This document shows, one piece after another, positions 1 through 54,434 of a stretch of 54,600 nucleotides of DNA. This stretch comes from Halorubrum lipolyticum DSM 21995 (GTDB lineage Archaea; Halobacteriota; Halobacteria; Halobacteriales; Haloferacaceae). The number at the start of each line of letters is the position of its first letter. The first letter of the stretch is position 1. The notes under the pieces were generated by a model. That model was not told where the DNA came from. It made no database searches and was given only the letters and a program-made list of their open reading frames with translations. The DNA is taken from the NCBI RefSeq assembly GCF_000337375.1, contig NZ_AOJG01000041.1, positions 55,606 through 110,205 of the forward strand, given 5' to 3'. Made by a program: the position numbers and the translations under genes.

Positions 1-180
1 GCCGCGCGAGTCCCGCGAGCAACGCGAGCGGGACCACGAACGTCGCAGCCCGCGCAGCGAAGCGAGCAGGAACGACGTTCGGAGGTCCTCGCGGCTGGGG
101 CTTTGGAGGTGTTCCCCATCGATCCACAATCAACCACATATAAACAGCCGACAGCAACACCACTTGATCGCTTATAAATA
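1..180 (-). repeat. Dispersed repeat, copy A (inverted, runs off the window edge)
   Basis: Read on the minus strand, this holds two units that begin with TTATAA or TTATAT. The second carries the core ACCTCCAAAGCCCCAGCCG, which is found again near 12850-12930, 25580-25660, 34995 and 54210. The distance from TTATAT to GAACACC is 29 nt, as in the other copies. After the core comes a long stem-loop: plus-strand 31-45 (GGACC..CGAACGTCG) pairs with 73-88 (CGACGTTCG..GGTCC). A second inverted repeat, GTCCCGC at 10-16 with GCGGGAC at 28-34, lies beyond it. The element probably continues left of position 1. No gene is visible in 1-312. Confidence 0.75.
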
Positions 181-10872: not shown

Positions 10873-12741
10873 ATGTTCGACAAGGTTCTGGTCGCGAACC
10901 GCGGGGAGATCGCGGTACGGGTGATGCGCGCCTGTGCGGAGCTGGGTGTCGACACCGTCGCCGTGTACAGCGACGCGGACAAGCACGCGGGCCACGTCCG
11001 GTACGCCGACGAGGCGTACAACGTGGGGCCCGCCCGCGCCGCCGACTCGTACCTCGACGGGGAGGCGGTCGTCGAGGCCGCGAAGGCGGCCGACGCCGAC
11101 GCGATCCACCCGGGCTACGGCTTCCTCGCCGAGAACGCTGACTTCGCGGCCCGCGTCGAGGCGACCGACGGGATCACCTGGGTCGGTCCCGCCAGCGACG
11201 CGATGGAGCGGCTGGGCGAGAAGACGCACGCGCGCCGCGTGATGGACGACGCCGACGTGCCCATCGTCCCCGGGACGACGGAGCCCGTCACCGAGGTCGA
11301 GGCGGTGACCGAGTTCGGCGACGAGCACGGCTACCCCGTCGCGATCAAGGCCGAGGGCGGCGGCGGCGGCCGCGGGATGAAGGTCGTCGAGAGCGCCGCC
11401 GAGGCCGAGGAGGCGCTCGAGTCGGCCAAGCGCGAGGGCGAGGCGTACTTCTCGAACGACTCCGTCTACCTCGAGCGCTACCTCCAGACCCCTCGCCACG
11501 TCGAGGTGCAGATCGTCGCGGACGCCGGCGACGGCGACGACGGGGAGACCGAGGTCGTCCACCTCGGCGAGCGCGACTGCTCGCTCCAGCGCCGCCACCA
11601 GAAGGTGATCGAGGAGGGGCCGTCCCCGGCGCTCTCGGACGAGCTGCGCGAGCGGATCGGCGAGGCCGCTCGCCGGGGCGTCGCCGCCGCCGACTACACC
11701 AACGCCGGCACTGTCGAGTTCCTCGTCGAGGAGGACGTGGACCGCGACCCGGCGGAGCCGCTCGGGCCGGACACCCCCTTCTACTTCCTCGAAGTCAACA
11801 CGCGGATCCAGGTCGAACACACGGTCACGGAGGAGCTGACGGGGATCGACATCGTGAAAGAGCAGCTCCGGGTCGCCAGCGGCGAGGGGCTCTCGGTGTC
11901 GCAGGACGACGTGGAGCTGGACGGTCACGCGATCGAGTTCCGGATCAACGCCGAGAACGCCGCGAAGGACTTCCAGCCCGCCAACGAGGGGCGGCTCGAC
12001 ACGTACGACCCGCCGGGCGGGATCGGCGTCCGCGTCGACGACGCGCTCCGGCAGGGCGACGAGCTGGTGACCGACTACGACTCGATGATCGCGAAGCTGA
12101 TCGTGTGGGGGTCGGACCGCGAGGAGTGCCTCGCGCGGTCGAAGCGCGCGCTCGCGGAGTACGAGCTCGACGGCGTCGTCACCATCGTCCCGTTCCACCG
12201 GCTCATGCTCGACGACGAGCGGTTCGTCGACGGCACCCACACCACGAAGTACCTCGACGAGGAGCTCGACGACGCGCTGGTCGCGGAGGCGCAGGAGAAG
12301 TGGGGAAGCGAATCGGCGTCGGCGAGCGACGACGGGGACGAGGAGGTGTCCGAACGCGAGTTCACCGTCGAGGTGAACGGGAAGCGCTTCGAGGTCGAAC
12401 TGGAGGAGCGCGGCGCGCCCGCGATCCCGGTCCCTGAGGGCGGCGCCGGCGGGAGCGGCGGCCAGCAGCGTCCCCCGCAGGCGAAGGCCGACGACGAGGA
12501 CGACGGCGGCGTCGACGTCGCCGAGGGCGGCGAGGCGATCGCGGCCGAGATGCAGGGGACGATCCTCTCGGTCAACGTCGACGAGGGCGACGAGGTGTCC
12601 GCCGGCGACGTGGTCTGCGTGCTCGAAGCGATGAAGATGGAGAACGACGTGGTCGCCGAGCGCGGCGGCACCGTCGCGAGCGTCCACGTCGGCGAGGGCG
12701 ACAGCGTCGACATGGGCGACGTGCTGATCGTTCTGGAGTAG
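10873..12741 (+). CDS. pccA: Acyl-CoA carboxylase biotin carboxylase/BCCP subunit
   Basis: A 622-residue alpha subunit. Residues 1-450 are a biotin carboxylase: [17 protein letters not shown] at the N-terminus, [14 protein letters not shown], the Gly-rich ATP loop [10 protein letters not shown], and [15 protein letters not shown] Glu/Asp-rich linker with a Gly/Gln stretch follows, and then a biotin carboxyl carrier domain whose LEAMKMEND motif places the biotinylated lysine at about residue 588. It makes carboxybiotin with ATP and bicarbonate for PccB. It is separated from pccB-pccX by an opposite-strand gene, so the locus is split into two transcription units. Confidence 0.96.
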
Positions 12742-12767
12742 GATCGAGCGTTCTCCGGCTGCGGTCG

Positions 12768-13021
12768 TTTATAACTGATCGACGGCTCCGCGGTGAGCGG
12801 ATCCGAAGTTTCAGCCGTTTGGTTATAAATCGACACTAACGGATCGACAGCGAACACCGCCAAAGCCCCAGCCGCTCGCTTATAAGTAGCCGAGAACAAA
12901 TCTGCGGCGGACACCTCCAAAGCCCCAGCCCGTACCGCTCCGCACAGCACCTCACACCTCCCCAGCCTCGTCGGCCTCCCTTCGGTCGGCCGACTCCCTC
13001 GCGCGTGCTGCTCGGCCGCGA
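12768..13021 (+). repeat. Dispersed repeat, copy B (three TTATAA units)
   Basis: Three head-to-tail units start with TTATAA at 12769, 12823 and 12880 (54- and 57-bp periods). The second and third contain the core ACCGCCAAAGCCCCAG or ACCTCCAAAGCCCCAG, 29-30 nt after the TTATAA. The shared segment CACCTCACACCTCCCCAGCC follows at about 12948-12967. Two stems come next: GTCGGCC 12970-12976 with GGCCGAC 12988-12994, and GGCCGC-gaa-GCGGCC at 13014-13028. The right end runs into the coding sequence of a truncated BKACE gene. The stretch 12742-13021 holds no other gene. Confidence 0.8.
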
Positions 13022-13165
13022 AGCGGCCTCGCAGGCGGCCGCGGCCGCCGCGATCTCCGCGGGCATCTCCGGGAGGTCGGGGTGGGCCTCCTTCCCGTGG
13101 ACGCCGCCGGTCAGCGCCGCGGTGACGATCACCGACTTCCCGTCGAGGTAGTCGTCGTAGGTCAT
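13022..13165 (-). pseudogene. BKACE (DUF849) gene fragment, N-terminal 48 codons
   Basis: The frame starts MTYDDYLDGKSVIVTAALTG and continues GVHGKEAHPDLPEMPAEIAA. This is the opening beta-strand and loop of the BKACE family (3-keto-5-aminohexanoate cleavage enzyme and relatives), normally about 270-300 residues. Similarity stops after ACEAA at 13022. What follows is repeat sequence (copy B), not the expected metal-binding HLH motif. The ATG overlaps the stop of the upstream gene (ATGA), so this was the second gene of a working operon. I infer truncation by a rearrangement involving the repeat. Confidence 0.72.
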
Positions 13166-13452
13166 CGCTCGGCGTCGGGGCGTCCGCTTGCCCCCGACTC
13201 CGAGTCCGACGGCGTTTCTTCCTCCGACTCCGAGTCCAACTCCGGCTCTGACCCCGACTCCGGCTCGACGTAGAACCCGCAGTCCGTCGCCGGGTCGAGA
13301 CCGTACCGCGCGTTACAGATGTCGGCGCGCATGGGTTGGACGAACGACCCCGTCACGGTACAGAACGCGCGGGGTTCGTCGAAGGTGGCCCCGTCGAAGG
13401 TGGCCCTGTCGCCCGCCCCGTGATACGTCAAATGCGGACACGTCTCAACCAT
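13162..13452 (-). CDS. Conserved cysteine-containing haloarchaeal protein
   Basis: A 96-residue protein with cysteines at CPHLTYH, FCTVTGS, DICNARYGL and DCGFYVE, a spacing that suggests one metal site or disulfides. The C-terminal third is a low-complexity Glu/Ser tail. It probably formed an operon with the BKACE gene whose remnant overlaps its stop codon. I recognise it only as a haloarchaeal hypothetical. Now that its partner is broken, its upkeep may be relaxed, although the reading frame is intact. Confidence 0.7.
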   Translation of the reverse strand: MVETCPHLTYHGAGDRATFDGATFDEPRAFCTVTGSFVQPMRADICNARYGLDPATDCGFYVEPESGSEPELDSESEEETPSDSESGASGRPDAER

Positions 13453-13552: not shown

Positions 13553-13900
13553 ATGGAACCGGTCGACGACTGGCGCGCGGCGATCGCGGAGGCCGGGGAG
13601 CTGACCGGCCCGATCGCCGCGGCCGTCGTCGACGAGCACGGCGATCGCGGGAAACGCGCCATCGAGGCGGTCGGCGAGGGGCGGGTGAAACGCTACCGCG
13701 ATTTCACCGTCGTCGTCGGTCACGACGACGAGTACGTCGTCGAGGACGGGGAGTGCACCTGCGCCGACGCGACGTACAACCTCGACGCCGACGACCCCTC
13801 CGAGCGGTGCTGGCACGCGATCGCGGTCGACGTGGCGGACGCGGTGGGCGCGGTCGACCACCACGACATGTGGTACTCGGAGGTTCGGGAGTTTCTGTGA
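13553..13900 (+). CDS. Short SWIM zinc-finger protein
   Basis: A 115-residue protein that is essentially one SWIM domain: YRDFTVVVGHDDEYVVEDGE, then CTCADATYN...RCWHAIAV, which gives the CxC..CxH ligands. The second SWIM protein in the window (the other is at 5154), but without the N- and C-terminal extensions. A GTTTAACC box at 13521-13528 lies about 28 bp before the ATG, so the mRNA is probably leaderless. SWIM proteins of this size in haloarchaea have no known partner. Confidence 0.85.
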   Translation: MEPVDDWRAAIAEAGELTGPIAAAVVDEHGDRGKRAIEAVGEGRVKRYRDFTVVVGHDDEYVVEDGECTCADATYNLDADDPSERCWHAIAVDVADAVGAVDHHDMWYSEVREFL

Positions 13901-25556: not shown

Positions 25557-25934
25557 TTATCAATGGTCGTGAGCAACGCGGTGAACATCTCTAAAGCCCC
25601 AGCCGCTCGCTTATAAGACGTTGACAGCGGATCGACGGTGAACACCTCCAAAGCCCCAGCCGCGAGGACGACTTACGCTCGCTGCGCTCCTCAGTCGCTC
25701 GTTTCACTCGCTCCTTGCGGTGCTTTCGTCGCCTAAGTCGTCCTCGCGGCTGCCCCTTTGAGTCCCACCCGACCGCACAGCCTCACACCTCCCCAGCCTC
25801 GCGGTTCGCGCTCTTCGAGCGCTCACCGCGTCCAGCGAGAATCGAAGATTCTCTGGCAGCCGGCGCGTAGCGCCGGCGACCTCGCACGCGCTCTTCGCGC
25901 CCTTCGGGCGCTCAGAGGCGCGCGCCGACCGCAC
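25557..25934 (+). repeat. Dispersed repeat, copy C (longest copy)
   Basis: Two units open with TTATCA at 25557 and TTATAA at 25611 and carry the core near 25583 and 25640. The core is followed by a long inverted repeat (25657-25675 with 25734-25752). Then come TTTGAGTCCCACCC, CACACCTCCCCAGCCTCG and four hairpins: 25802-25828, 25837-25853, 25859-25877 and 25897-25911. It ends with GGCGCGCGCC. Copy E (54176-54434) has the same order. The 25410-25960 interval holds no convincing gene; two short frames inside it are explained by the repeat. Confidence 0.85.
25640..25934 (+). ncRNA. Candidate structured RNA from repeat copy C
   Basis: The predicted transcription start, 29 nt after the TTATAA at 25611, falls on the conserved GAACACC. 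Downstream are one long stem (19 bp) and four short hairpins, each closed by a three-base loop (TTC, GAA, GTA, TTC). Stem sequences differ from copy E but remain paired. Transcription is inferred, not shown. Confidence 0.35.
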
Positions 25935-34963: not shown

Positions 34964-35170
34964 TTTATAACTGAACGACGGTGGATCGATAGGAGCACTT
35001 CCAAAGCCTCAACGGCTGCCCTTTTGAGTCCCTCCCCGTTCCGCACCTTACCGCACCTTACCGCACCTTACCGCACCTCACGCCTCCCCAGCCTCTTCGC
35101 TCGCCTCTGGCGAGCGACTCACTCGCCGTTCTCTTCGCGCCCGCTGGGCGCTCGGCAGCGCGCGCCACCG
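34964..35170 (+). repeat. Dispersed repeat, copy D (shortened)
   Basis: One unit: TTATAA at 34965 and, 28 nt later, GAGCACTTCCAAAGCC. The segment TTTGAGTCCCTCCCC follows, and then four near-identical 10-mers CCGCACCTTA (35041-35080), CACGCCTCCCCAGCCTC, the hairpin CGCTCGCC-tct-GGCGAGCG (35098-35116) and the hairpin GCGCCC-gct-GGGCGC (35137-35151). It ends with GCGCGCGCCACCG. The two middle hairpins of copies C and E are missing, so the element is modular. No gene lies in 34929-35276. Confidence 0.75.
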
Positions 35171-54175: not shown

Positions 54176-54434
54176 TTATAAATGGCGAACAACGGACCGA
54201 TGGGGAGCACCCCCAAAGCCCCAGTCACGACGGCTCGCGACTGCCTCTTTGAGTCCCACCCCGCACCGCACAGCACCGCACCTCACGCCTCCCCAGCCTC
54301 GCGGTTCGCGCTCTTCGAGCGCTCACCGCGTCCAGCGAGGGACCGAAGGTCCCTCTGGCAGCCGGCGCTCCGCGCCGGCGACCTCGCACGGGCTCCTCGT
54401 GGGCCGGTGGCCCACTCGGAGGCGCGCGCCACCG
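54176..54434 (+). repeat. Dispersed repeat, copy E
   Basis: TTATAA at 54176 and, 29 nt later, GAGCACCCCCAAAGCCCCAG. Then CTTTGAGTCCCACCCC, CACGCCTCCCCAGCCTCG, and hairpins at 54302-54328, 54337-54355, 54361-54379 and 54399-54415, in the same order as copy C. The last two modules end GAGGCGCGCGCCACCG. The long inverted repeat present in copies A and C is absent. The remaining gap to the tRNA contains a TTTATAAAT box near 54482 and no gene. Confidence 0.85.
54205..54434 (+). ncRNA. Candidate structured RNA from repeat copy E
   Basis: Predicted to start at GAGCACC, 29 nt after the TTATAA, then a run of four hairpins with three-base loops (TTC, GAA, TCC, GGT). Paired differences from copy C support a folded product. 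Transcription is inferred only. Confidence 0.35.

Follow-up and report, generated by a model that had tools for sequence, protein, structure and literature searches.

The 54,600-nucleotide stretch of the Halorubrum lipolyticum DSM 21995 genome analysed here (the window) contains a reading frame that starts as a gene of the beta-keto acid cleavage enzyme (BKACE) family and finishes in repeat sequence. The question raised by this locus is whether the repeat entered the gene, or whether the gene lost the sequence that had once separated the two.

The truncated BKACE gene

We found that the minus-strand open reading frame from 13165 to 12836 matched the Pfam BKACE family (PF05853), with residues 12-48 aligned to positions 2-38 of the 274 in the profile. 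The match scored 31.2 bits, above the curated cut-off of 24.8, and was confined to the N-terminal 37 positions. The frame's ATG and the TGA stop of the preceding gene (13452 to 13162) overlap in the sequence ATGA. When the protein was aligned with its 280-residue orthologs, identity ended at codon 48 (...AACEAA); the orthologs go on with GASVLHLHAR... and the window with SRPSSTREGV..., which is repeat sequence, and the tail of the frame showed no similarity to BKACE. These results bear out a sequence-only reading of the region, which had described 48 intact codons, a start that overlapped the stop of the preceding gene, and a switch into repeat with the loss of roughly 230 codons. The remnant thus shares with PF05853 proteins its first 48 residues and its genome context, whereas the remaining 232 residues are gone. 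Among them is the HxH of the HLHAR motif (immediately past ortholog residue 52), which we take to be the metal site of BKACE enzymes, and with the frame departing from BKACE after codon 48 a full domain with this site is absent. Judged from its sequence, the remnant should not give an active enzyme. In addition, it carries P11S and T34M at two positions that are nearly invariant in orthologs, a weak sign of relaxed selection.

The same reading had expected that the missing 3′ part might lie beside another copy of the repeat. We found no copy of the 232 codons anywhere else in this genome, and the sole other BKACE gene, located on another contig, was a paralog of full length with about 50% identity. 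The features of the locus are collected in Table 1. In the small gene upstream of BKACE, the Ser/Glu-rich tail is encoded by short repeats of the GACTCCGAGTCC type (window 13185-13275).

Table 1. Features of the window that bear on the BKACE junction
Feature	Position	Strand	Basis or remark
accC, biotin carboxylase/BCCP fusion of acyl-CoA carboxylase	10873..12741	+	ORF; orthologs adjoin intact BKACE
accC 3′ flank and tandem ~58-nt TTATAA / GCCCCAGCC units	12742..12931	-	3′ side of the element on the minus strand
Structured module, two hairpins	12932..13036	-	R1 model match 12955-13043, 62.7 bits
Chimeric tail of the remnant frame	12836..13021	-	61 further codons through the repeat to the stop
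BKACE 5′ remnant, pseudogene, codons 1-48 of 280	13022..13165	-	Pfam match and ortholog alignment
GCGGCCTCGCAGGC, sole remaining direct-repeat copy at the putative deletion junction	13023..13036		common to element hairpin and BKACE codons 44-48
Small gene, 96 aa, Cys/His-containing, Ser/Glu-rich tail	13162..13452	-	kept upstream of BKACE in relatives
p115, conserved 115-aa protein, CxC...CxH motif	13553..13900	+	right synteny anchor
Further structured-element copies	25786-25926, 35081-35166, 54286-54430		R1 58, 48 and 37 bits

The repeat element beside intact BKACE genes

The locus was compared across 52 Halorubrum genomes, 32 of which contained PF05853 matches. A 280-residue BKACE ortholog was present at the same locus in about 27 distinct relatives, in the order accC, BKACE, small gene, p115, with accC and p115 reading rightwards and the two genes between them leftwards. 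The small gene and p115 adjoin BKACE in these loci, and accC lies opposite wherever the locus reaches it and the order is kept; accC, convergent to BKACE, served as the left synteny anchor. We found that the same element, in the same orientation, lies between accC and BKACE in 15 of the 27 distinct intact loci, contrary to the earlier expectation that the repeat would be absent where BKACE is full length. Within the window's own accC clade, Halorubrum sp. CSM-61 has the same-orientation element beside an intact BKACE. The distance from the end of the element to BKACE codon 48 was 807-811 bp in nine species. The element is therefore an old neighbour of the gene, and the truncation does not show, as had been proposed, that the family is mobile.

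Other loci differed at this site. In Halorubrum sp. Hd13 the element occurs there solely in the opposite orientation (L096:3380-3740), and 11 of the 27 loci had none within the stretch searched, accC being outside the locus for several of these. In H. persicum, H. saccharovorum and locus L042 the stops of accC and BKACE lie 4-6 bp apart with no element between them (L042, L093, L097). The first 30-60 bp that the window has past the accC stop (GATCGAGCGTTCTCCGG.CG.GGTCGTTTATAA) were shared with a dozen relatives from either side of the tree, indicating that the intergenic region is old. Furthermore, the accC 3′ flank together with the tandem units (12742-12931) was 84% identical to the matching stretch in H. 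xinjiangense, which adjoins an intact BKACE.

In the accC tree the window grouped with H. kocurii (100/92) and then with H. salsamenti, in a clade of ten that includes H. persicum, H. saccharovorum, H. amylolyticum and CSM-61. The sister species, H. kocurii, has completely lost BKACE and the small gene, and H. salsamenti has no BKACE at the locus and a relic of the small gene only. The BKACE locus therefore seems to have decayed gradually in this clade, and the state immediately before the loss in the window cannot be read from either species. In H. salsamenti (contig 16, 104778-106643 and 243657-244001) about 137 kb of the contig separates accC from p115, the locus having been split by rearrangement. 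Elsewhere, BKACE in genome G042 is cut to codons 208-280, its last ~73, with a TnpB gene adjacent (L215:3660-3880), which is an independent inactivation at the same locus. The BKACE of H. californiense matched as two overlapping pieces (L103:4520-4630), and a frameshift near codon 36 is therefore probable there, or else a sequencing error.

A junction sequence that fits both parents

The sequence-only reading had placed the junction within a hairpin at 13014-13028. The palindrome GGCCGC-GAA-GCGGCC does sit there. No single base can be named as the junction: repeat-type sequence extends to 13036 and BKACE-type sequence starts at 13023, so that the 14 bp GCGGCCTCGCAGGC belong to both. We found that the hairpin of the element terminates in GCGGCCTCGCAGGC and that the same 10-14 bases occur within BKACE codons 44-48. 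Copies of the same hairpin subtype elsewhere in this genome end in GCGGCCTCGCAGGCACGCGCC.

Both parental sequences could be seen in H. xinjiangense (L041). Its element ends in GGCCGCGGAGCGGCCTCGCAGGC, followed by ACGCGCCACCGC, and its BKACE reads GCGTCCTCGCAGGCGGCCGCGGCC on the same strand; the window junction reads GGCCGCGAAGCGGCCTCGCAGGC and then GGCCGCGGCC, with the element on the left and the gene on the right. The last 116 bp of the H. xinjiangense element are 94% identical to the window, ending in CGGAGCGGCCTCGCAGGC immediately before ACGCGCC, and the BKACE side matches the window at 87% from ...CCTCGCAGGCGGCC onwards. In that genome GCGGCCTCGCAGGC in the element and CCTCGCAGGC in BKACE are 810 bp apart. 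In most species the extant BKACE gene keeps 10-11 of the 14 bases, and that of Hd13 has the complete 14-mer; both 14-bp copies together were found in no extant genome examined. In the H. xinjiangense pair, BKACE has 10 bp of the sequence and the element all 14, so the extent of the original match is inferred. An overlap of 10 bp or 14 bp at 75% GC has a chance of about 9e-6 or 8e-8, respectively.

A query spanning the junction gave the same picture. Among the matches listed for other genomes, those to the repeat stopped at about 13036 or a few bases later, those to BKACE began at 13023 or within a few bases after it, and none had the two joined; the joined form was unique to the window in the 52 Halorubrum genomes.

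Probable deletion between two short direct repeats

We conclude that about 810 bp were very probably lost by deletion between two short direct repeats, with the element already neighbouring BKACE and no insertion taking place. A single short direct-repeat copy lies at the junction, where 13023-13036 fits both parents. Undeleted relatives have a copy at either end of the extra sequence, as seen in H. xinjiangense and by the 14-mer in the Hd13 BKACE, and the longer form is ancestral, with gene and element together in many species including the window's own clade.

The ancestor would have had the order accC, repeat element, BKACE, small gene, with BKACE and the small gene facing accC and the element lying between the convergent genes, some 180 bp past the BKACE stop codon. 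In this ancestor the element's outer hairpin would have ended in GCGGCCTCGCAGGC, and BKACE codons 44-48 would have carried the same sequence or a near match on the same strand. Deletion between these direct repeats would have taken one copy and the ~810 bp in between, namely BKACE codons 49-280, the stop codon, the spacer and the 5′ end of the element with its outer stem and TATA-like box, leaving one 14-bp copy at the junction. The process may have been single-strand annealing, microhomology end joining or replication slippage, and the hairpin may have helped by pausing the fork or exposing single strands.

Repeat-mediated deletions are known from Haloquadratum walsbyi and Halobacterium (Dyall-Smith et al. 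2011, PMC3119063). In those cases direct repeats of 4-20 bp stand at both ends in the undeleted genome and one copy is left in the other; where polarity is known the change is deletion, not insertion; genes are truncated; and sizes range from 10 bp to 34 kb, with 16 cases having 10-19 bp repeats between two Haloquadratum strains (PMC3119063). The window agrees with these in its truncated gene, the flanking repeats of its undeleted relatives and the one copy at its junction. It differs in the setting of its repeats, one of which forms part of a hairpin in a structured intergenic element while the other is coding sequence, and in resting on a comparison between species rather than strains.

Transposition of the element into BKACE, with later loss of the 3′ part, would account for a junction in the terminal hairpin, a common end point of IS605-like elements. 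The sites that are empty in H. persicum, H. saccharovorum and L042, together with the inverted Hd13 copy, likewise suggest that the element family may move. We nevertheless regard insertion as highly improbable and rejected it. In relatives the same element already lies between accC and an intact BKACE at fixed spacing, and the 14 bp at the junction belong to both parents. The window copy is, moreover, truncated at its own end, lacking ACGCGCC... and the TATA-like box, which is the opposite of a clean insertion, and no 3′ part of BKACE follows beyond the element. The earlier proposal that the element inserts or recombines into genes therefore survives in part: truncation at the repeat and a role for the hairpin in a recombination-like event hold, but insertion does not, the element being conserved beside intact genes.

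Dozens of similar copies in the genome could in principle have permitted ectopic recombination joining BKACE to a foreign copy. Against this, accC and its 3′ flank (GATCGAGCGTTCTCCG...), orthologous to the accC-BKACE interval of relatives, still border the element, so both sides of the junction are local, and no rearranged counterpart was seen; we give this explanation next to no weight. Equally negligible is a misjoin of repeat to BKACE by a short-read assembler, for although the assembly is a 41-contig draft in which other repeat copies have N gaps and duplicated flanks, the junction lies mid-contig without an N, its 14 bp shared stretch is far shorter than a read, the BKACE 3′ part that a misjoin would leave on another contig is absent from the 99.4% complete assembly, and the two substitutions at nearly invariant residues are as expected of a decaying gene. 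Collectively, these comparisons leave deletion between the two direct repeats as the preferred explanation.

Architecture of the repeat element

A common plan was found in 38 copies of this genome. Read on the minus strand of the window, it begins with a TATA-like TTATAA box and GGCGCGYGCC, followed by P2, stem P3 framed by GAG and CGA, P2′ and P1′. Then come GAGGGAG, stem P4 and CGAGGCTGGGGAGGYG, and after these GGGACTCAAAGGGGCAG, a long hairpin and CTGGGGCTTTGGAGGTG. One to several tandem ~58-nt units ending in TTATAAGCG complete the element. The TATA-like box is present upstream in many copies. At least 74 model matches were obtained in this genome and all 52 Halorubrum genomes had matches; in the order, six other genera gave weaker matches only. 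The copies are intergenic, none of 36 examined in this genome lying inside a predicted coding region, and a simple gene call based on codon usage gave convergent neighbours in 16 of 34.

The covariance-model match showed that the window copy has three broken pairs in the outer stem P1 and no TATA-like box, which we attribute to their removal by the deletion. The central long hairpin is absent as well; at 12921-12932 it is missing between the imperfect direct repeats AAAGCCCCAGCC and TGAGTCCCACCC, and likewise in L009 and L025. The three hairpin-free copies suggest that the central hairpin, too, has been lost recurrently. Among the other copies, stem P2 is broken at 35081, the P4 region is enlarged by extra sequence at 25786 and 54286, and tandem units also occur near window 85-180. 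A single N with duplicated flanks lies inside the repeat copies L006, L008, L009, L013 and L002 of this assembly, marking scaffold joins at repeats.

In 35 aligned copies, 93.9% of the cells in 26 pairs were paired and 15 of the 26 pairs changed on both sides, with compensatory changes in three stems. The covariation score was 0.421, against 0.142 +/- 0.011 for shuffled alignments (0/500), and was lost on sliding the partners. The tandem GA columns, which form GAG/CGA internal loops around two hairpins, were invariant in 35/35. On the minus strand, G-U exceeded A-C (35 versus 17) in 62 distinct copies, pointing to this strand as the RNA strand, and in one copy the minus strand folded better than the plus (z -3.5 versus -2.6). 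No Rfam 15 family matched at its gathering score, even when hits up to E<=1 were admitted, and no description of the element was found in the open-access literature searched. On sequence grounds, the element may represent a structured RNA family, or a REP-like one, that has yet to be described. More specifically, and at slightly less than even confidence, we put it forward as a candidate for an undescribed family of large structured noncoding RNA, with its own promoter, two covarying GAG/CGA-framed hairpins, a long third hairpin and 58-nt tails, which has spread to dozens of intergenic sites per Halorubrum genome and whose hairpins seed gene deletions.

Mobility and relation to known repeats

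The presence and orientation of the element at the accC-BKACE site differ between species, and the empty sites and the Hd13 inversion, not the junction in the window, suggest that the family is mobile over evolutionary time. The junction itself is no evidence for transposition. The variation at the site may have come about by transposition, deletion or recombination.

Palindrome-associated transposable elements (PATEs) have been described in haloarchaea (PMC3119063), and one was noted in work on an H. lacusprofundi virus and its host (PMC10544981). Like PATEs, the element is short, non-coding, palindromic and multi-copy; it has near-terminal palindromes and no terminal inverted repeats were seen, its core is recurrently lost between internal direct repeats, and it occurs in either orientation at one locus. 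The Hd13 copy, being inverted, also recalls the 'SwitchRepeats' category (PMC3119063). Unlike simple degenerate transposon ends, the element has stems that covary strongly. In further contrast to PATEs, it has no IS605/TnpB link as judged by TnpB proximity, is rare on plasmids and was not found in phage records. A strong R1 match lay within ~1.5 kb of 2 of 30 TnpB loci, about the chance level, and a tie to TnpB/IS605 was rejected. A phage origin was likewise rejected, as phage records gave no match; among plasmids, five records gave weak matches, one of them in Halorubrum.

REP/BIME (REPIN) sequences can number in the dozens in a bacterial genome; they are structured, occupy intergenic sites that frequently separate convergent genes, and are commonly truncated. 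The element resembles them in being intergenic and structured, in its dozens of copies per genome, in its share of convergent neighbours and in its truncated copies. It is, however, much larger, at ~300 nt, with several hairpins, tandem 58-nt units and a TATA-like box.

The truncation of BKACE is in itself ordinary. The loss of the gene here fits a local, gradual loss, the two nearest relatives being also without a working BKACE at the locus. What the window adds is a base-level case from Halorubrum in which short-direct-repeat deletion joined a structured intergenic element to coding sequence, and it corrects the tempting reading of a mobile repeat that jumped into a gene. The repeat family, with its strong covariation, merits a study of its own.
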